From positions 1 to 41,317 of the IMG/VR virus record IMGVR_UViG_3300047319_000683: a stretch of 41,317 nucleotides of DNA. One strand, written 5' to 3'. Positions 9 through 40,364 of the stretch are shown here, piece after piece (positions within the stretch are counted from its first letter, which is position 1; every line of letters starts with the position of its first letter). Origin of the DNA: a virus. The notes under the pieces were generated by a model. That model had not been told where the DNA came from and did no database searches. It saw only the letters and a program-made list of their open reading frames with translations. The translations under genes were made by a program, and so were the position numbers.

Positions 9-1325
9 GTGCAGAAACACGGACGCCGTAATACCTATAGCGAACTGTCGCTACCCATCTCCCCGATTGCTGTCTCGCGAGAGAGTTCCGATAAGCCCCC
101 CTACCAGGTGCCGAGCATGGCGGAGATCAGTGCGATTCCGTGGAACGGCTACACGGCTATCTCGACGTTTAGCGGCTGCGGCGGATCTTCACTCGGCTAC
201 AAGCTGGCCGGATTCCGGGTCGCCTGGGCGAATGAGTTCGTGCCAGCAGCTCGGGACACCTACCGGGCGAATGCGCCTGAGACGATCCTTGATCCGCGCG
301 ACATTCGGGAGATTACCCCGGAGTCGATCCTCGCCGCGCTCGGTCTAACGGTCGGTCAGCTCGATGTGCTTGATGGCTCGCCGCCCTGCGCGTCGTTCTC
401 TACCGCTGGCAAGCGTGAGGCAGGCTGGGGCAAGATCAAGACCTATTCCGACACGAAGCAGCGTACCGATGATCTCTTTTTCGAGTACGCGCGACTCGTG
501 CGAGGAATCCAGCCGAGAATCTTCATTGCGGAGAATGTCTCTGGCCTCGTGAAGGGTACGGCGAAAGGGTATTTCAAAGAGATTCTGCGCGAACTTAAAG
601 AGTGCGGTTATCGGGTCGAAGCGCGTTTACTCGATGCGCAATGGCTCGGAGTTCCGCAGATGCGCCAGCGCGTGATCTTCTTCGGCGTGCGCGAGGATCT
701 CGACGCAACTCCCCGTTTCCCGAAGCCGCTACCGTATCGCTATAGCGTGCGCGACGCGCTACCGTGGATCATTGCGCAGGGGGACAATGGTGGCTTTGGG
801 CACGGAAGTCTCCCGGAGACTTCCGTGCCCAGTCCAACGATCGGCGCCGGACCACAGACCGGCAATGGGGCCTACCCCCCCTCGCTGGTGTCCGCGCGTG
901 CCATGAATGACACGCGCGGACAGGCATCCTATAGCATGGGTGATGTGACAGATATTCCTGCTCCATCAATAGTTGCAAGTGGGCACCATCTATGGGTCGA
1001 AGAGGCGAATGGTCTCAACTCGCAAGGACTCGGTCCTGGCGAGCAATCCGATAAGTATTACTCGCTGGTGCGAACTGATCCAGAACGCCCGAGCCCAACG
1101 GTTACCCAGCGCGGGGGTGATGGTGGCGACGCCACCATCACCCATCCGACTGAACGGCGGAAATTCACGATTGCAGAACTCAAACGGATCTGTGCTTTTC
1201 CGGATGACTTCGTGCTGACCGGCACCTACGCCCAGCAATGGGAACGGCTCGGACGCGCGGTGCCACCCTTGATGATGGCAGCCATTGCCGAGCAGGTGCG
1301 TGTAGTGCTGGAGGAGATTCCCTAA
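9..1325 (+). CDS. C5-cytosine DNA methyltransferase with altered motif X; candidate DNA carboxymethyltransferase
   Basis: C5-cytosine DNA methyltransferase. Numbering from the GTG at 9, motif I is FSGCGG (54-59), motif IV is GSPPC with catalytic Cys127, motif VI is ENV (175-177) and motif VIII is QRVIFFG (220-226). The target-recognition region (about 240-380) has repeated PSPT-like units. Motif X reads LGRAVPP, with Arg416 where the family has an almost invariant Asn (GNAVPP). That position is the one I recall being changed to Lys in engineered M.MpeI to accept carboxy-SAM. The frame is open to the window's left edge, so the start may lie upstream; ATG 117 (MAEISAIPWNG) is also plausible and lies just before motif I. 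The stop overlaps the next start (TAATG), and a CmoA gene follows two genes on. Family is certain; use of carboxy-SAM is inferred. An ordinary 5-methylcytosine enzyme remains possible. Confidence 0.93.
   Translation: MQKHGRRNTYSELSLPISPIAVSRESSDKPPYQVPSMAEISAIPWNGYTAISTFSGCGGSSLGYKLAGFRVAWANEFVPAARDTYRANAPETILDPRDIREITPESILAALGLTVGQLDVLDGSPPCASFSTAGKREAGWGKIKTYSDTKQRTDDLFFEYARLVRGIQPRIFIAENVSGLVKGTAKGYFKEILRELKECGYRVEARLLDAQWLGVPQMRQRVIFFGVREDLDATPRFPKPLPYRYSVRDALPWIIAQGDNGGFGHGSLPETSVPSPTIGAGPQTGNGAYPPSLVSARAMNDTRGQASYSMGDVTDIPAPSIVASGHHLWVEEANGLNSQGLGPGEQSDKYYSLVRTDPERPSPTVTQRGGDGGDATITHPTERRKFTIAELKRICAFPDDFVLTGTYAQQWERLGRAVPPLMMAAIAEQVRVVLEEIP
798..830. repeat. Perfect inverted repeat, 16-bp arms, 1-nt centre
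   Basis: The left arm GGGCACGGAAGTCTCC (798-813) and its exact reverse complement (815-830) are separated by one base. It lies inside the coding sequence for the target-recognition region of the C5-methyltransferase, in frame and without a stop. It could form a strong mRNA hairpin or a DNA cruciform. Confidence 0.9.
889..922. repeat. Perfect inverted repeat, 12-bp arms, 10-nt loop
   Basis: The left arm TGTCCGCGCGTG (889-900) pairs exactly with 911-922. This is the second of three perfect palindromes within 350 bp of the methyltransferase target-recognition region. Confidence 0.88.
1115..1143. repeat. Perfect inverted repeat, 14-bp arms, 1-nt centre
   Basis: The left arm GGGTGATGGTGGCG (1115-1128) pairs exactly with 1130-1143 around a single A. 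This is the third palindrome in the same coding region, and its near-zero loop matches the layout of the one at 798-830. Confidence 0.88.
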
Positions 1326-2692
1326 TGTGCGGTATAGCCGGGGGATATGGTGCGGGCCTGGCGCGGATGCTTCCGCTACTCCGCCACCGAGGGCCAGATG
1401 CCGAAGGGTGCCAGCAGATCGGTCCGCTGATGCTGCTCCATACCCGTCTCGCGATCATCGACTGCCACCCGCGCAGTAATCAGCCGTTTACCTATGGACA
1501 GACGACTATTAGCTATAACGGCGAGCTCTGGAATTTCCGCGAGGTGCGGGCTCTCCTCGCGCAGGAGGGCTGCTCGTTCCAGACGAACGGGGATACGGAA
1601 GTTATGGCTGCTGCCCTGGACCGATGGGGCGCGGCGGCGCTCCCCCGATTCGATGGCATGTTTGCTGTGGCCTGGACCAAGGATGGTCAGGAGGTCTCAC
1701 TTGCGCGGGATCGCTATGGCGAGATCCCCCTCCACTGGGCACCGGGGGCCTTTGCCTCGGAACGCAAAGCCCTGCTGGGAATGGGGATCGCGGGACATCT
1801 TATTCAGGATGTCCCGCCCGGTGGTCTCCTCACCCTCTGCCCGTCCGGTGCTCGCATCACGACGTGGTATGCCCTCCCTGCCAGAGAGCAGAGAATCGAC
1901 CGTCTGACCGCAGCGGATCGGCTACGAACCCTGCTGGAGGAGGCCGTCACGGCGCGGCAGATCGCAGATGTCCCTCTCGCTACGCTATTCTCCGGGGGAT
2001 TGGATAGCGCCACCATTGCCGCAATCCTCGTCCGCTCCTTCCCCGGTATCCCGTCCTATATCGCGGTCTATGATCCCCGCTCCCCGGACCTGCGGGCGGC
2101 CCGCATCGGTGCGGAGGCGCTGGGCCTGACTCTGCGGGAGGTCCGCGTTCCATCCCCCACGGCGGACGACCTCGCCGGGGTCGTCCGGGTGATTGAAATG
2201 TCATCAAAGGCTCAGGTCGAGATCGGCTGGCCCTGTTTGGCGCTGGCCCGTGCCATGCAGGCAGACGGCATTCGTGTGATCTTCAGCGGAGAGGGGAGTG
2301 ATGAGCTCTGGGCGAGTTACGGATTCTCCTACCACGGTATTCAGCAGGAGGGCTGGGGGCCGCATCGGCGGAAGCTGATCCGCGCCCAGGCTGCCAAGAA
2401 TTTCGCCCGCTGCAACAAGATTTTCATGGCGGCCGGGATTGAGTGCCGCCTACCGTTCCTCTCCCCGCCATTAGTCGAATATGCACTTTCCCTACCACAG
2501 GCTACCGTGCAGGACCGGGGGCGGCCGAAAGCCGTGCTCCAGGATGCTGTAGGGGACTGGCTCCCCTCCCGTCTGCGGGACCGTCCGAAACTCGCCTTTC
2601 AGGATGGGCTCGGCATGAAGTCTGCTGCTGCCCAGGCCGTGGCCCAGCCGGCCCGTTTCTATCGTCAGGAATATGCCCGCACCTTTGGGTGA
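1325..2692 (+). CDS. Asparagine-synthetase-like glutamine-dependent amidotransferase (AsnB family)
   Basis: Two-domain class II glutamine amidotransferase of 455 aa. The start at ATG 1325 puts Cys2 at the mature N-terminus (MCGIAGG), as this family requires. Glutaminase motifs follow: RHRGPDAEG (20-28), RLAIID (41-46), YNGE and NGDTE. The synthetase domain has the PPi loop SGGLDS (223-228) and SGEGSDE (321-327), whose Glu is catalytic in E. coli AsnB. Known members adenylate a carboxylate and replace AMP with ammonia from glutamine. Length is a little short of E. coli AsnB (about 550 aa). It overlaps the methyltransferase stop and precedes the CmoA-like gene by 15 nt, so I infer that its acceptor is a carboxymethyl group on DNA. 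Making free asparagine, or modifying a tRNA or sugar, are alternatives. Confidence 0.92.
   Translation: MCGIAGGYGAGLARMLPLLRHRGPDAEGCQQIGPLMLLHTRLAIIDCHPRSNQPFTYGQTTISYNGELWNFREVRALLAQEGCSFQTNGDTEVMAAALDRWGAAALPRFDGMFAVAWTKDGQEVSLARDRYGEIPLHWAPGAFASERKALLGMGIAGHLIQDVPPGGLLTLCPSGARITTWYALPAREQRIDRLTAADRLRTLLEEAVTARQIADVPLATLFSGGLDSATIAAILVRSFPGIPSYIAVYDPRSPDLRAARIGAEALGLTLREVRVPSPTADDLAGVVRVIEMSSKAQVEIGWPCLALARAMQADGIRVIFSGEGSDELWASYGFSYHGIQQEGWGPHRRKLIRAQAAKNFARCNKIFMAAGIECRLPFLSPPLVEYALSLPQATVQDRGRPKAVLQDAVGDWLPSRLRDRPKLAFQDGLGMKSAAAQAVAQPARFYRQEYARTFG
1790..1817. repeat. Inverted repeat, 10-bp arms, 8-nt loop
   Basis: GCGGGACATC (1790-1799) pairs exactly with 1808-1817. It lies inside the AsnB-like gene near the glutaminase/synthetase junction. 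There is no T-tract, so it does not look like a terminator. Confidence 0.7.
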
Positions 2693-2707: not shown

Positions 2708-3427
2708 ATGTCTGCAAGTAGTCTCGGCCATCTTCCAACCGGCGATCACTGGGCATTCGACGCATCGGTTACGGAGGTGTTCGATGATATGCTCACCCGC
2801 TCGATTCCAGATTATCTCGAAATGCGCGCACTCGTGCTGGATCTCGCCTCGCGCTTCCAGCAAGACGGTACCGATATCGTTGACCTCGGCTGTTCGCGTG
2901 GCGAAGCGATGGCCTCACTACTCGCGCGATTCTACGGTCGCAATCGGTTCGTCGGGGTTGAGGTTTCTGAGCCGATGCTTATTGCTGCACGGGATCGCTT
3001 CGCTCGGGAAATCGACCGCGGTCTCGTTGCAATCCAGCATCTTGACTTACGTGAGACCTATCCGCAGGTGAATGCTTCCGTCACGCTCTCGGTGCTGACC
3101 TTGATGTTCGTGCCACTCGAGCATCGGGCGCGCGTCGTTCGCGATATGTACGACCATCTCCTACCTGGTGGCGCACTGCTCCTTGTAGAGAAGATCCTCG
3201 GTTCCTGCCCCGCGCTCGATGAGCGGATGGTTGCATCCTATTACGATTTCAAGCGGCGCAACGGCTACAGTCAGGAGGAGATCACGCGCAAGCGGCTAAG
3301 TCTCGAAGGAGTGCTAGTGCCAGTGACGGCCGCGTGGAATGAGGACCTTCTTCGCATGGCCGGCTTTACGATGATTGACACCTTCTGGCGTTGGCAAAAT
3401 TTTGCCGGCTGGGTCGCGGTTAAATGA
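2708..3427 (+). CDS. CmoA-like carboxy-S-adenosylmethionine synthase
   Basis: Class I SAM-binding protein of 239 aa that aligns with E. coli CmoA (247 aa) over nearly its whole length: WAFDASVTEVFDDMLTRSIP near the N-terminus, SAM motif VDLGCSRGEA (58-67), LLPGGALLLVEK, and FKRRNGYSQEEITRKR (181-196). Arg196 matches CmoA Arg199, the residue that contacts the transferred carboxylate in carboxy-SAM, as I recall. CmoA converts SAM plus prephenate to carboxy-SAM, which CmoB then uses on tRNA uridine 34. No CmoB is present in this window, but a DNA methyltransferase with a basic substitution in motif X lies two genes upstream. ATG 2708 has a GGAAGG-type ribosome site. The stop overlaps terS (ATGA). 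A related SAM methyltransferase is the main alternative. Confidence 0.9.
   Translation: MSASSLGHLPTGDHWAFDASVTEVFDDMLTRSIPDYLEMRALVLDLASRFQQDGTDIVDLGCSRGEAMASLLARFYGRNRFVGVEVSEPMLIAARDRFAREIDRGLVAIQHLDLRETYPQVNASVTLSVLTLMFVPLEHRARVVRDMYDHLLPGGALLLVEKILGSCPALDERMVASYYDFKRRNGYSQEEITRKRLSLEGVLVPVTAAWNEDLLRMAGFTMIDTFWRWQNFAGWVAVK
3393..3406. repeat. 14-bp perfect AT-centred palindrome
   Basis: GGCAAAATTTTGCC is self-complementary. It lies in the last codons of the CmoA-like gene, about 20 nt before the terS start. It could be an operator for the packaging genes or simply coding sequence. Confidence 0.4.
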
Positions 3428-5662: not shown

Positions 5663-5856
5663 TGTGGCGAGTGCTGATTTCCATTGTCGAGGCGCTGGCG
5701 TTGGCCGCGCTGGCGGGCATCTTTGCGGTGCTCGGTTGGTTGGCGGGCGAGCGTGGTCAATGGGGGCAGGTCGTGCTGTGTGTGGTGGTGTTCGGGCTGA
5801 CCACGATGGGCGAACTGTCGGCTATCGCGGATCTGGTGGAGTGGCAACATGCGTGA
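5662..5856 (+). CDS. Small two-helix membrane protein
   Basis: 64 aa with two hydrophobic segments (about 5-27 and 36-54) separated by GERGQWG. It overlaps the terL stop by one base and the neuB-like start by eight bases, so it is co-translated with both. I do not recognise the family. It could be a membrane factor linked to the sugar cassette or a small phage membrane protein of other function. Confidence 0.7.
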   Translation: MWRVLISIVEALALAALAGIFAVLGWLAGERGQWGQVVLCVVVFGLTTMGELSAIADLVEWQHA

Positions 5857-6757
5857 ACTGATGATCGGCGGGCACCGCATCGCGGATGACGAACCGGCCT
5901 TTGTCGTGGCTGAGATTGGCTGTAATCATCAGGGGTCGGTGCAGACCGCTTGTGAATTGATGCGGGCAGCGGCGGAGTGTGGATGCGACGCGGTGAAGTT
6001 TCAGAAGCGCGACCTCGACTGGTGGGCTGAGCGTGATCCGAAGTGGAACGAGCCCTACCACTCCGAGCACGCCTTCGGCCCCACCTACGGCGATCACCGG
6101 GCGGCGTTGGAGTTCGGGGCTGATGAATACGAGTTCCTGAAGCTCCGAGCGGAGAATCTCGGGCTGATGTTCCTGGCGACCGCGTTCGATGTGCCGAGTG
6201 TGGGGTTCCTGTCGGATCTCGGGGTGCCGGCGCTCAAGATCGCCAGCGCCTCCATCGTCAATCGCCCGCTGCTCGAGGCGGCCGCGTTCACCGGGCTGCC
6301 GTTGATCGTAAGCACCGGGGGCGCGACCGTACAGGAGGTTGACGACGCGCAGAGATTGATCTATTACAACCCCCACCATCCTCCATTGGCATTGATGCAC
6401 TGCGTCAGCTCATATCCCTGCGAAGCAAGGGATATGCAGCTCCGTGTGATTGAGAGTCTGAGGGCGTCCTACCCGGAAACTGTCATCGGGCTGTCGGATC
6501 ACTACAGCGGCATTCTGACCGGCCCGCTCGGCTGGATGCTGGGTGCAAGGATCTTTGAGAAGCATTTCACCCTGCATCGGGGCTGGAAGGGGTCCGATCA
6601 AGCCTGGAGCCTGGAGCCGCACGGACTGCGCTCACTGGTGCGGGATCTCAAGCGTACCCGTGAATCGCTCGGGGATGGGGTCAAACGGCGATTGGACATC
6701 GAGGTCGCGCCGTTGGTCAAGATGGGGCGCACGGATTTATTGGAGGTGGCACCCTGA
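5849..6757 (+). CDS. neuB: NeuB-like nonulosonate (sialic acid family) synthase, TIM barrel without SAF domain
   Basis: 302 aa. Motifs run in NeuB order: VVAEIGCNHQGS (19-30), AVKFQ (48-52), ALKIASASI, LIVSTGGAT (152-160), MHCVSSYPC, GLSDHYSG (214-221) and EKHFTL (237-242). The two metal-binding His are His218 and His239. NeuB enzymes condense PEP with an N-acylated hexosamine to make sialic, legionaminic or pseudaminic acid. Family members are about 340-350 aa with a C-terminal antifreeze-like SAF domain; here the chain stops right after the barrel (KMGRTDLLEVAP). It begins inside the small membrane gene, and its stop overlaps a CTG-started cupin gene. The exact sugar cannot be told from sequence. 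Confidence 0.9.
   Translation: MRELMIGGHRIADDEPAFVVAEIGCNHQGSVQTACELMRAAAECGCDAVKFQKRDLDWWAERDPKWNEPYHSEHAFGPTYGDHRAALEFGADEYEFLKLRAENLGLMFLATAFDVPSVGFLSDLGVPALKIASASIVNRPLLEAAAFTGLPLIVSTGGATVQEVDDAQRLIYYNPHHPPLALMHCVSSYPCEARDMQLRVIESLRASYPETVIGLSDHYSGILTGPLGWMLGARIFEKHFTLHRGWKGSDQAWSLEPHGLRSLVRDLKRTRESLGDGVKRRLDIEVAPLVKMGRTDLLEVAP
6411..6436. repeat. Inverted repeat, 9-bp arms, 8-nt loop
   Basis: CATATCCCT (6411-6419) pairs with 6428-6436 inside the neuB-like gene. There is no T-tract. It is another intragenic hairpin like those in the methyltransferase genes. Confidence 0.6.
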
Positions 6758-7155
6758 CGACGATTAGCGCCTATATCCCCCGCACACTGGAGCGGGATTG
6801 GGGAACGGAAGAGATCATTGCCGAGGGGCCCGGGTACTGCGGCAAGATCCTGAAGTACACGGCAGGGAAGGCGGGCGGACTCCAGGCGCATACCTGGCGC
6901 GTGGAATCCTTCCATCTGGTATCGGGCGTTGCCTATGTCGATTCCGATAATGGAGAGGGGAGACTCACACGCATCCGTATGATGGCGGGGCAGACCCTCC
7001 ACATTCCGAGCGGCGCCGCTCATCGCTTCGTGGCGATTACCGATTGTGTGGTGTTCGAGGTGAGCACCAGCGCAGACGCCGACCGCGTGCGGATGGAGAC
7101 CCAGTACGGCGAGTCCGAGGTGGGTGGACTGCCGAGTACGGAGGCATATGCCTGA
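6754..7155 (+). CDS. Cupin-fold protein of the sugar cassette, CTG start
   Basis: 133 aa with a single cupin domain. Motif 1 is GGLQAHTWRVESFHLVSG, with one His of the usual HxH replaced; motif 2 is GQTLHIPSGAAHRF. The N-terminal WGTEEIIAEGPGYCGKIL resembles cupins encoded beside neuA/neuB genes, which may act as sugar isomerases, epimerases or binding proteins. No ATG, GTG or TTG opens this frame before residue 50, but CTG 6754 lies 6 nt after GGAGGT and overlaps the neuB stop as CTGA. That is the same layout as the other coupled starts here, so I prefer CTG. The exact reaction is unknown. Confidence 0.78.
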   Translation: MTTISAYIPRTLERDWGTEEIIAEGPGYCGKILKYTAGKAGGLQAHTWRVESFHLVSGVAYVDSDNGEGRLTRIRMMAGQTLHIPSGAAHRFVAITDCVVFEVSTSADADRVRMETQYGESEVGGLPSTEAYA

Positions 7156-7879
7156 GCGCATCGTGGCCCTGATCCCCGCTCGGGCGGGCAGCAAACGTAT
7201 CCCTGGCAAGAATACCCGCGAACTGGCGGGGCATCCGCTGCTCGCCTATGCCATCGCCGCCGCGCAGGAGGCTGGGATCTTTGAGCGCATCGTGGTGAGC
7301 ACGGACAGTGGGGTGACCAGGGATCTAGCGATCCAGTATGGAGCGGTGGCAATCGCACGTCGCGCGGAACATGCGCAAGATTACAGCCCGGATCTCGACT
7401 GGGTAGAACATGCTATGACTTGGGAGATGTACAACGAGTCGGCCGAGGCCTTCTGCATCCTGCGCCCGACCTCCCCCTTCCGTCGTGGTGAGTGGATCAA
7501 GGCCGCGTGGGACTGCTTCCGCCAGTACGGACGGGCTGACAGCCTGCGCGCCATGCGGCCGGTGTCCGAGCACCCTGGCAAGATGTGGCGAGTCGAGCGG
7601 GTGACGAGCAGCGTGCCGTTGCTGCCGTTCAGCGGGGATCGTGCCCCCTGGCACAGCATGCCGACGCAGGAGCTGCCCCCGGTATTCGTGCAGACCGCCG
7701 CGCTGGAGATCGCGTGGACGCGGGTACTTCCCGACTCCATCAGCGGCAGTGTGGTGCTGCCGTGGGTCTGTGCCAAGGATGACCCAATGGCGCTCGACAT
7801 CAACACGCCCGAGGATTGGGCACGAGCTGAGCAGATGGCGGCCGAGCATCCCGAGTGGCTACCGGAGGTGCGGCGGTGA
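7148..7879 (+). CDS. neuA: CMP-nonulosonate synthetase (NeuA-like cytidylyltransferase)
   Basis: 243 aa. The N-terminal IPARAGSKRIPGKN (9-22) is the nucleotide-binding signature of NeuA/KdsB-type CMP-sugar synthetases. VVSTDS, LRPTSPFR and a C-terminal ALDINTPEDW also fit NeuA/PseF/LegF. The reaction couples CTP to a nonulosonic acid to give CMP-sugar for a glycosyltransferase. ATG 7148 has GGAGG just upstream and overlaps the cupin stop by 8 nt. No NeuC-type epimerase is in the window, so the hexosamine precursor probably comes from the host. Confidence 0.92.
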   Translation: MPERIVALIPARAGSKRIPGKNTRELAGHPLLAYAIAAAQEAGIFERIVVSTDSGVTRDLAIQYGAVAIARRAEHAQDYSPDLDWVEHAMTWEMYNESAEAFCILRPTSPFRRGEWIKAAWDCFRQYGRADSLRAMRPVSEHPGKMWRVERVTSSVPLLPFSGDRAPWHSMPTQELPPVFVQTAALEIAWTRVLPDSISGSVVLPWVCAKDDPMALDINTPEDWARAEQMAAEHPEWLPEVRR

Positions 7880-8229
7880 GGGCAGGGGATCATTACGCGG
7901 TGGATCTAGACGGCGTGCTGGCTCATGCCGCAGACACGCACTATGTGCCTGGGTGGATCGGCCCCCCGATCCCGGCAATGGTGGATCGAGTCAAGGCGTG
8001 GCGCGCGCAAGGGATCCCCGTGGTGATCTTCACGGCGCGGGTGTCGAAAGAGGGGCGATCCCCCATCTGGCGAGAGTATCCCGCCATCGAAGCGTGGTGC
8101 CTGGAGCATCTGGGCGAAGTGCTGCCGATTACCTGCGAGAAGTCGTGGCGCACGGCCCGTATCTACGATGATCGGGCTATTGCCGTGGAGCGAAACACCG
8201 GCCGACTATTGAGTGAGGAGCCTGCATGA
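7876..8229 (+). CDS. Small HAD-family hydrolase
   Basis: 117 aa. HAD motif I is VDLDGVLA (Asp10 and Asp12), motif II region is VVIFTARVS, and motif IV is IYDDRAI followed by VERNTGRLL. This compact form, with IGPPIPAMV and AWCLEHLG between the motifs, is frequent in phage genomes. The start is GTG 7876, seven nt after GGAGG and overlapping the neuA stop (GTGA). In this place it could remove a phosphate from a sugar intermediate, but that is only context. Confidence 0.83.
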   Translation: MRAGDHYAVDLDGVLAHAADTHYVPGWIGPPIPAMVDRVKAWRAQGIPVVIFTARVSKEGRSPIWREYPAIEAWCLEHLGEVLPITCEKSWRTARIYDDRAIAVERNTGRLLSEEPA

Positions 8230-9029
8230 TTACAGCGCGGGAGCGGACCAGGATCTACGACGTGGGGCTGGTGGATTATGAGCCCGCCCACATAGAGATG
8301 TTCCTCGAGCCGGAGAACGCCTACCAGGGGCCGCTCCGTCGTTTGCGGCAGAACTGCTGTGAGAAGGAGCCGTTTACGGTCGCCTTCATCGAGAGCATCC
8401 CCCCGGGCGGCGTGCTGTACGACGTGGGCGCCAACGTGGGCGGCTATTCGCTGGTGGCGGCGGCGCGGGGATTGCAGGCGGTCGCCTTCGAGCCGATCCC
8501 ACAGAATGCAGAGATGCTGCTGGCGAATCTCCAGCTCAACGGCTGGACAGATCGCGTCATCGTGATGCAGCAAGGGCTCGCTACCGTCTCGGGGCTGGTT
8601 TGGGTCCACTACGCCGATACCCGCCCCGGCTCAGCCACCTTTGCCTGGGGCGAGGTGAAGCCGAATCAACGGCCCGGCTTCGGCTGGCACTCGGTGCTGA
8701 TCCCGGTCTCGCCCCTCGATGAGCTGGTGGGGCGCTACCATTTGCCGCCCCCTACGCATCTGAAGATCGACGTCGACGGCAATGAGCAGGCCGTGCTGGG
8801 CGGGATGTCGCAAGTGCTGGCGCTCCCCTCGCTGGTGGGCATCATGATCGAGCTCCAGCCCGACCGAGAAGCCGAGATCGTGGGTATGCTGAACGCGGCG
8901 GGGTGGAGCATTGTCGAGCGGTGGGATGTGCGCAACATCGCCTACGCGCGCCTGGAGCGGGTGGTGGAGGAGCCTACGGCAGAGGAGATCAAGCCCAGTC
9001 GGCGGAAGAATGGTCACGTAAAGAGTTGA
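8226..9029 (+). CDS. FkbM-family SAM-dependent methyltransferase
   Basis: 267 aa. Motif I YDVGANVGGYSL, then AFEPIPQN, and the FkbM hallmark LKIDVDGNEQAVLGGM are all present. FkbM enzymes O-methylate sugars and polyketides. It is the last enzyme of the neuB-neuA cassette and overlaps the HAD gene (ATGA), so methylation of the sugar or glycan is the likely role. The C-terminal tail (VEEPTAEEIKPSRRKNG) is charged and probably disordered. Confidence 0.88.
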   Translation: MITARERTRIYDVGLVDYEPAHIEMFLEPENAYQGPLRRLRQNCCEKEPFTVAFIESIPPGGVLYDVGANVGGYSLVAAARGLQAVAFEPIPQNAEMLLANLQLNGWTDRVIVMQQGLATVSGLVWVHYADTRPGSATFAWGEVKPNQRPGFGWHSVLIPVSPLDELVGRYHLPPPTHLKIDVDGNEQAVLGGMSQVLALPSLVGIMIELQPDREAEIVGMLNAAGWSIVERWDVRNIAYARLERVVEEPTAEEIKPSRRKNGHVKS

Positions 9030-39546: not shown

Positions 39547-39726
39547 ATGATCTACACGCCGATTCGGGAAGCCAAGGCGGACGTGACCTACTGGCTCGAG
39601 GAGCTCCAGCGCCTGCTCCGGGAGCCGAGCCGGGATTGGCGCTGGCACGAGCGGTGGATGGAAACGCATGAGCGATGGGTGGCGAGTCATGCGCGGTACG
39701 AGATGCTGATGCGGAGGCGCAACTGA
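39547..39726 (+). CDS. 59-aa basic helical protein (unknown)
   Basis: ATG 39547 after ACGGAG. Trp/Arg/Glu-rich helices (LREPSRDWRWHERWMETHER). Its end overlaps the next gene, and GGAGG for that gene lies in its last codons. Not recognised. Confidence 0.58.
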   Translation: MIYTPIREAKADVTYWLEELQRLLREPSRDWRWHERWMETHERWVASHARYEMLMRRRN

Positions 39727-40364
39727 GCTGGCCGTACTACGAGCGCGGCGGCATCACTATCTACCACGGCGATGCGCGTGACATCGTGCCGAGCCTTGAC
39801 TTCGACGTGGTACTTACGGACCCGCCCTACGGGACTGGCCAGAAGATCGCCTATCGCCCGTACAAGGACACGATGGACAACTGGGTGGAGTTGATGGCCT
39901 GGCTGCTCGCCCTGCCGCAGCCGATGGCATTCACGATGAGCCATACGCGGCTATTCGACTTGCCGGTGCGCCCGCAGTGGATGGGCTGCTGGGACAAAGT
40001 ATTTACGGGCGGGATCGTGCATATCGGAGCATCTCCATCTTGGGAGCCGATCTGCTTCTACCACCTGCCAGCGGGCGACCGCGGACGCCCTCGGTGGGAT
40101 GACATCTTCCGCGTGCCCGTAAATGGGCACGCGGAAGGCTTTGTCTCGCAGATGGCTATCGCGCATCCCTGCCCCAAGCCGGTCAACCTCTACCGTCGGC
40201 TAATCGAGGTGCTGCCGGAAGGCGTGATCCTCGATCCCCTGATGGGCTCCGGCACGACCCTGCGCGCAGCGAAAGACCTCGGCAGATCAGCTATCGGCAT
40301 CGACCTATCCGAGGCGTACTGCGAGATCGCTGCCAAGCGATTAGCCCAGGATGTGCTGCTATGA
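39723..40364 (+). CDS. DNA adenine/N4-cytosine methyltransferase (beta-type motif order), CTG start
   Basis: 213 aa. Motif IV DPPYGTG (33-39) precedes motif I-like DPLMGSGTTLRAA with GIDLSE near the C-terminus, the order of beta-class amino-methyltransferases. DPPY favours N6-adenine, but N4-cytosine cannot be excluded. The best start is CTG 39723, five nt after GGAGG and overlapping the upstream TGA as CTGA; no ATG or GTG with a ribosome site fits. No matching restriction enzyme is nearby, so it is probably an orphan used for protection or regulation. Confidence 0.9.
   Translation: MSWPYYERGGITIYHGDARDIVPSLDFDVVLTDPPYGTGQKIAYRPYKDTMDNWVELMAWLLALPQPMAFTMSHTRLFDLPVRPQWMGCWDKVFTGGIVHIGASPSWEPICFYHLPAGDRGRPRWDDIFRVPVNGHAEGFVSQMAIAHPCPKPVNLYRRLIEVLPEGVILDPLMGSGTTLRAAKDLGRSAIGIDLSEAYCEIAAKRLAQDVLL
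40106..40137. repeat. Perfect inverted repeat, 13-bp arms, 6-nt loop
   Basis: CTTCCGCGTGCCC (40106-40118) pairs exactly with 40125-40137 in the middle of this methyltransferase gene. Its right arm (GGGCACGCGGAAG) resembles the left arm of the palindrome at 798-830 in the other methyltransferase gene. Confidence 0.85.

Follow-up and report, generated by a model that had tools for sequence, protein, structure and literature searches.

What does a phage do with a carboxy-SAM synthase (CmoA) when it carries no CmoB, the partner with which E. coli CmoA modifies tRNA to cmo5U34? This question is raised by the virus record IMGVR_UViG_3300047319_000683, a linear sequence of 41,317 bp, possibly a fragment, which was analysed in full and is called the window here. 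An earlier note, made from the sequence alone, had identified cmoA and suggested a DNA methyltransferase as the carboxy-SAM user.

The cmoA gene and its surroundings

The cmoA gene is a 239-aa ORF with an ATG start, located exactly at positions 2708–3427 of the plus strand. A ribosome-binding site, GGAAGGAG, is read directly in the sequence at 2693–2700 of the same strand, 7 bases 5' of the ATG. The predicted carboxy-SAM synthase matches positions 14–239 of the 239 positions of the NCBIfam CmoA profile TIGR00740 (160.8 bits, E 4e-47) and the phage family phrog_4752, annotated as 'tRNA methyltransferase' (240 bits, E 3e-71). The closest solved structures are those of the CmoA proteins 1im8, 4gek and 4iwn (E 5e-32 to 6e-30). 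In a BLASTP alignment of 233 columns, 35% of the positions are identical to E. coli CmoA, and the phage CmoAs of phrog_4752 are nearer to the window protein than the E. coli enzyme is. The near end-to-end match described in the earlier note is thus borne out, and the family matches over the full length rule out a chance ORF or a misannotation. The window CmoA falls short of the curated equivalog cut-off of TIGR00740 (193.3 bits); however, the CmoA of Synechococcus phage S-B43, whose activity was measured, scores only 115.6 bits and is also under it, so this cut-off cannot be taken as a definition of phage CmoAs.

Arg196 of the window CmoA (3293–3295, plus strand) aligns with E. coli CmoA Arg199, as the note had indicated; Arg199 is the sole residue touching the carboxylate of carboxy-SAM (PMC4482062). 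In the same alignment, Arg is absent from this position in the CmoAs of S-B43 and Streptomyces phage TurkishDelight, and its presence is therefore not strictly diagnostic. A CmoA phylogeny, as proposed in the note, was built. Among the phage proteins its deep forks have poor resolution, and E. coli CmoA pairs with the very long branch of Pseudomonas phage SM1 (L122), so no origin is claimed.

A search of the 41,317-bp record, possibly a fragment, with the CmoB profile TIGR00452 was negative, while the same search was positive in 14 of 14 control genomes. The cmoB gene is also absent from the 20 further phage records searched. The missing CmoB, on which the note had based its expectation of another carboxy-SAM user, was therefore found to be missing from the whole record.

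The cmoA gene is the last of a three-gene operon, cmoX (9–1325), cmoY (1325–2692) and cmoA, all on the plus strand. The stop codon of cmoX overlaps the ATG of cmoY (TAATG), 15 bases separate cmoY from cmoA, and the TGA of cmoA overlaps the next start, that of the small terminase gene. Genes for terminase, portal, protease, capsid and tail proteins lie beyond it. The C5-methyltransferase gene is located 1.4 kb upstream of cmoA on the same strand; the amidotransferase/ligase gene between them had escaped the note. Third-position GC is 0.63–0.71 in cmoX, cmoY and cmoA versus 0.79–0.85 in the terminase, portal and capsid genes, which hints at a separate acquisition of the three genes. The order X-Y-A is shared with TurkishDelight and no fewer than five further viral loci (L034, L055, L031, L036 and L109), and the contig IMGVR_UViG_3300047311_000312 is 100% identical to the window from cmoY through fkbM.

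Between the terminase and portal genes (5849–9029), the window encodes a NeuB-type synthase, a cupin, a CMP-sugar cytidylyltransferase (PseF-like), a small HAD-like protein and an FkbM methyltransferase. This cassette suggests nonulosonic acid or surface glycan chemistry. A role for it in DNA modification was considered and rejected: among the fetched CmoA/CmoX loci, only the near-identical L002/L107 has it. A second DNA methyltransferase, of the N6/N4 type, is encoded at 39675–40364.

CmoX and the arginine of motif X

A phage pathway that uses carboxy-SAM without CmoB was described by Yang et al. (Nat Commun, December 2025; PMC12783734). In S-B43, CmoA supplies carboxy-SAM to CmoX, a C5-cytosine carboxymethyltransferase, and CmoY extends the product. 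Carboxy-SAM synthesis, transfer to C5, amide formation by CmoY and the final base in virion DNA were all shown, and the crystal structure of CmoX (SpCmoX, 8YF3) was solved (PMC12783734).

The window cmoX (9–1325, plus strand; the true start may be the ATG at 117) encodes a protein of the C5-methyltransferase family (Pfam DNA_methylase, E 4.5e-56), predicted to be a DNA cytosine-C5 carboxymethyltransferase. Its catalytic Cys lies in the SPPC motif (GSPPCASF) at residue 127 of the ORF counted from position 9 (387–389, plus strand) and is invariant in two alignments. Ordinary C5-methyltransferases have GN(A/S)V in motif X, whereas the window CmoX has GRAVPP instead of GNAVPP. An alignment with 8YF3 and HaeIII indicated that the window motif, ERLGRAVPP, corresponds to ERVGRMVPP in SpCmoX, HaeIII having Asn, and that Arg416 (1254–1256, plus strand) is the counterpart of SpCmoX Arg350 and HhaI Asn304; this Arg is also invariant in two alignments. 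Arg350 is a SpCmoX residue to which the carboxymethyl group of carboxy-SAM binds, and the R350N substitution abolishes the activity of the enzyme (PMC12783734).

Among solved structures, 8YF3 is the best sequence match of the window CmoX (E 9e-69; the next match has E 2e-24) and also the best fold match of its predicted model (Z 31.2, rmsd 4.9, 275 aligned residues, 42% identity). HhaI reaches Z 29.3; the lead of 8YF3 in Z is small, and the argument is carried by the motif X Arg and the sequence score. The target-recognition region of the model (219–347) has low confidence, and for this reason nothing is said about the sequence specificity of CmoX. The observed/expected ratios of GpC (1.07) and CpG (1.09) in the window give no hint of a modified motif, since neither dinucleotide is depleted.

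The linkage between the motif X residue and CmoA was examined in the 116 loci for which this column of motif X could be read. CmoA is located nearby in 89 of the 97 C5-methyltransferase loci with Arg at this position versus 8 of the 19 with other residues (Fisher p 4e-6); some of the loci were chosen by similarity to the window itself and their contigs are related, so the counts are descriptive and the events are not independent. Five of these eight non-Arg loci have the canonical Asn and lie beside the ParB-methyltransferase fusion described below, two belong to Staphylococcus phages with Gly, and one is a broken ORF. Conversely, no CmoA was found in the whole records of three CmoX-like C5-methyltransferases with Leu or Met at the Arg position (L079, L095 and L096), nor in that of Flavobacterium phage tooticki (L112), which has Met there. 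The former three are natural contrasts for finding what decides the cofactor.

C5-methyltransferases with the motif X sequence VVGGV, in which Gly takes the place of Arg or Asn, were noted near CmoA at L027:4980–7498 (Staphylococcus phage vB-SscS-F1) and L119:3983–5682 (SPbeta-like); in L027, a CmoY-like ligase is encoded between CmoA and this enzyme. Possibly, such proteins bind carboxy-SAM in a different way. A further observation concerns Alcaligenes phage Afa-NA1 (PV550095; L023/L120–L121), whose CmoA is 47% identical to that of the window. Its 78-kb record, possibly incomplete, contains no C5-methyltransferase; it encodes a dTMP kinase, a thymidylate synthase and two proteins annotated as DNA adenine methylases.

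The expectation of the note that a DNA methyltransferase uses the carboxy-SAM is supported by the motif X Arg, by 8YF3 as the nearest solved relative and by the S-B43 precedent. Its wording implied a single such enzyme; the window has two, and the C5-type one is the candidate.

Like the window, S-B43 has CmoA, a C5-methyltransferase with SPPC and the motif X Arg, an adjoining asparagine-synthetase-like ligase and no CmoB; unlike it, S-B43 has the gene order A-Y-X. The corresponding genes of TurkishDelight (gp123-124-125) are in the same order as in the window and encode a glutaminase-type CmoY, with CmoX being 56% and CmoY (gp124) 50% identical to the window proteins; however, the CmoAs of the two share only about 26% identity, and TurkishDelight has two ParB-like genes upstream, whereas no ParB_N partner was detected in the window. 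The E. coli CmoA shares the family, the length and Arg199 with the window protein but has CmoB as a partner, and the target expected here is DNA, not tRNA. The engineered carboxy-SAM user M.MpeI N374K (cited in PMC12783734) also has a basic residue in place of the motif X Asn; in contrast to the window CmoX, this residue is an introduced Lys, and no dedicated CmoA gene is involved. The specificity of M.MpeI N374K is CG.

CmoY, the predicted base and the alternatives

The cmoY gene (1325–2692, plus strand) encodes an asparagine-synthetase-like amidotransferase with a class II glutaminase domain (GATase_6/7 and Asn_synthase matches; AsnB 1ct9, E 6e-43). The synthetase half (Asn_synthase, E 9e-42) retains SGGLDS and SGEGSDE as well as the late Lys that is conserved, and RLAIID, YNGE and GDTEV, motifs of an AsnB-like glutamine site, are found in the glutaminase half. 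Cys2 (1328–1330, plus strand), which follows the initiator Met in MCGIAGG, is presumably the N-terminal nucleophile of the glutaminase domain, as in class II amidotransferase chemistry. Judging by its sequence, the window CmoY belongs to the second, glutaminase-bearing CmoY cluster (A0A7T0Q3R0-type), which is distinguished by the N-terminal Cys. A count that includes redundant contigs puts glutaminase-domain CmoYs in 12 of the 111 CmoX-type loci. For this cluster, Yang et al. proposed glutamine-derived ammonia as the substrate and obtained no soluble enzyme (PMC12783734).

The best explanation of the locus is the following pathway. CmoA would convert SAM and prephenate, the latter presumably supplied by the host as the note had assumed, into carboxy-SAM. 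The SPPC cysteine of CmoX would attack C6 of cytosine and the carboxymethyl group would pass to C5, with 5-carboxymethylcytosine in phage DNA as the product. CmoY would then adenylate the carboxylate with ATP and most likely add glutamine-derived ammonia, yielding 5-carbamoylmethylcytosine; ammonia transfer is the most likely outcome because the glutaminase domain with its N-terminal Cys is kept. The modified cytosines would probably protect the phage DNA from host restriction. That the window proteins act like those of S-B43 is suggested by homology and the key residues at moderate levels of identity (38% for CmoX, 29% for CmoA and 20% for CmoY, the last over the synthetase domain only). For the first two steps, taken together with some form of amide ligation by CmoY, we estimate a probability of about 0.87. 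Conversion of 5-carboxymethylcytosine into the neutral amide 5-carbamoylmethylcytosine by the glutaminase-bearing CmoY is the somewhat bolder part of the prediction and still the probable one, since the domain is intact. We know of no demonstration of 5-carbamoylmethylcytosine in natural DNA.

If the CmoA and CmoX steps are the same, CmoY might instead add glycine or another amine, its glutaminase domain being degenerate or otherwise used. Such a product is suggested by SpCmoY, the sole CmoY tested so far, which ligates glycine (PMC12783734). However, SpCmoY (271 aa) has no glutaminase domain, unlike the window protein, which keeps Cys2 and all three glutamine-site motifs, and the ammonia proposal of Yang et al. 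concerns precisely the glutaminase cluster; a glycine-type product is thus rather unlikely here. The classical role of CmoA offers a very different explanation, in which the phage enzyme boosts carboxy-SAM for the CmoB of the host and thereby increases cmo5U34 in tRNA during infection. Many hosts do have CmoB. Nevertheless, cmoB was found neither in this nor in the 20 further phage records, and cmoA is placed in one operon with an Arg-type C5-methyltransferase and an amide ligase; we consider this role very improbable.

The other methyltransferases of the window, the FkbM-type enzyme (8226–9029) and the N6/N4-type enzyme (39675–40364), also belong to SAM-dependent families and could in principle use carboxy-SAM. 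Neither gene is in the operon, though. The N6/N4 enzyme has relatives in 460 phage records, versus 83 records with CmoA; for the FkbM enzyme, the near-identical sister contig is the one fetched CmoA/CmoX locus with a relative. With no linkage to CmoA, both were rejected as the main user, a role that is extremely improbable for either. Equally hard to credit is the view that CmoA chiefly drains SAM and blunts SAM-dependent host defence: this possibility was raised by Yang et al., and SpCmoA is a fast enzyme (PMC12783734), but such a role leaves the linked Arg-type CmoX and CmoY unexplained. The preferred reading thus remains DNA carboxymethylation by CmoX followed by amide formation by CmoY.

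A ParB-methyltransferase fusion linked to phage CmoA

Several CmoA records lack any C5-methyltransferase, namely L005, L008, Gordonia phage Evaa and Pseudomonas phage SM1. All four encode, on the same strand, a protein of about 515 aa with a ParB-like N-terminal domain and a class I SAM methyltransferase domain, which corresponds to phrog_5475, annotated as 'unknown function'. The fusion is located at L008:1683–3233, L005:3171–4691, L004:4083–5597, L026:702–2237 (Evaa gp2) and L122:3348–4904 (SM1 gp52), and also in L135–L214. Its predicted model has a mean pLDDT of 90.9; the N-terminal part matches ParB-CDP structures, and residues 240–473 match class I methyltransferases, for example METTL6 (Z 14.4, rmsd 3.5, 192 aligned residues).

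A search of viral contigs with the fusion protein, not CmoA, as the query revealed 291 encoding stretches, of which 88 loci were examined. In 87 of them, the strand of the fusion gene also encodes CmoA, typically about 400 bp downstream, while an Arg-type C5-methyltransferase was found in none of the 88. A CmoY-type ligase is likewise absent from all 88, versus its presence in 31 of 111 CmoX-type loci. Near-full-length fusions are present in 14 records of the named-phage collection (Evaa, Aeromonas phage HJ05 and 12 SM1-like Pseudomonas phages), and the CmoA matches without CmoX in named phages come from the same kinds of phage. On the CmoA tree (85 rows), the CmoX and fusion partner types are interleaved, with at least 15 changes by parsimony and weakly resolved forks. 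A small HAD-like ORF beginning MI(I/V)LLDLNYTL (for example, L008:5505–5990 and L123:7567–8013) was also noted in 83 of the 88 ParB-methyltransferase/CmoA loci versus 0 of the 111 CmoX-type loci.

Yang et al. linked no N6 or N4 carboxymethyltransferase candidates to CmoA and named ParBc proteins only as neighbours (PMC12783734), and a full-text search found no other literature on the link with CmoA. The lead therefore looks new, and the phrog_5475 fusion is a candidate for a second carboxy-SAM user in phages.

The window system itself is most likely of the CmoA–CmoX–CmoY kind already published, here with the less studied glutaminase-type CmoY. It provides an independent phage that supports CmoA without CmoB as a mark of DNA carboxymethylation, and it adds a compact three-gene operon in which CmoY is expected to take ammonia, not glycine, as its substrate. 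Its CmoY is a further candidate enzyme for the branch that Yang et al. were unable to assay. If the ParB-methyltransferase fusion also uses carboxy-SAM, phages would have at least two unrelated types of carboxymethyltransferase.
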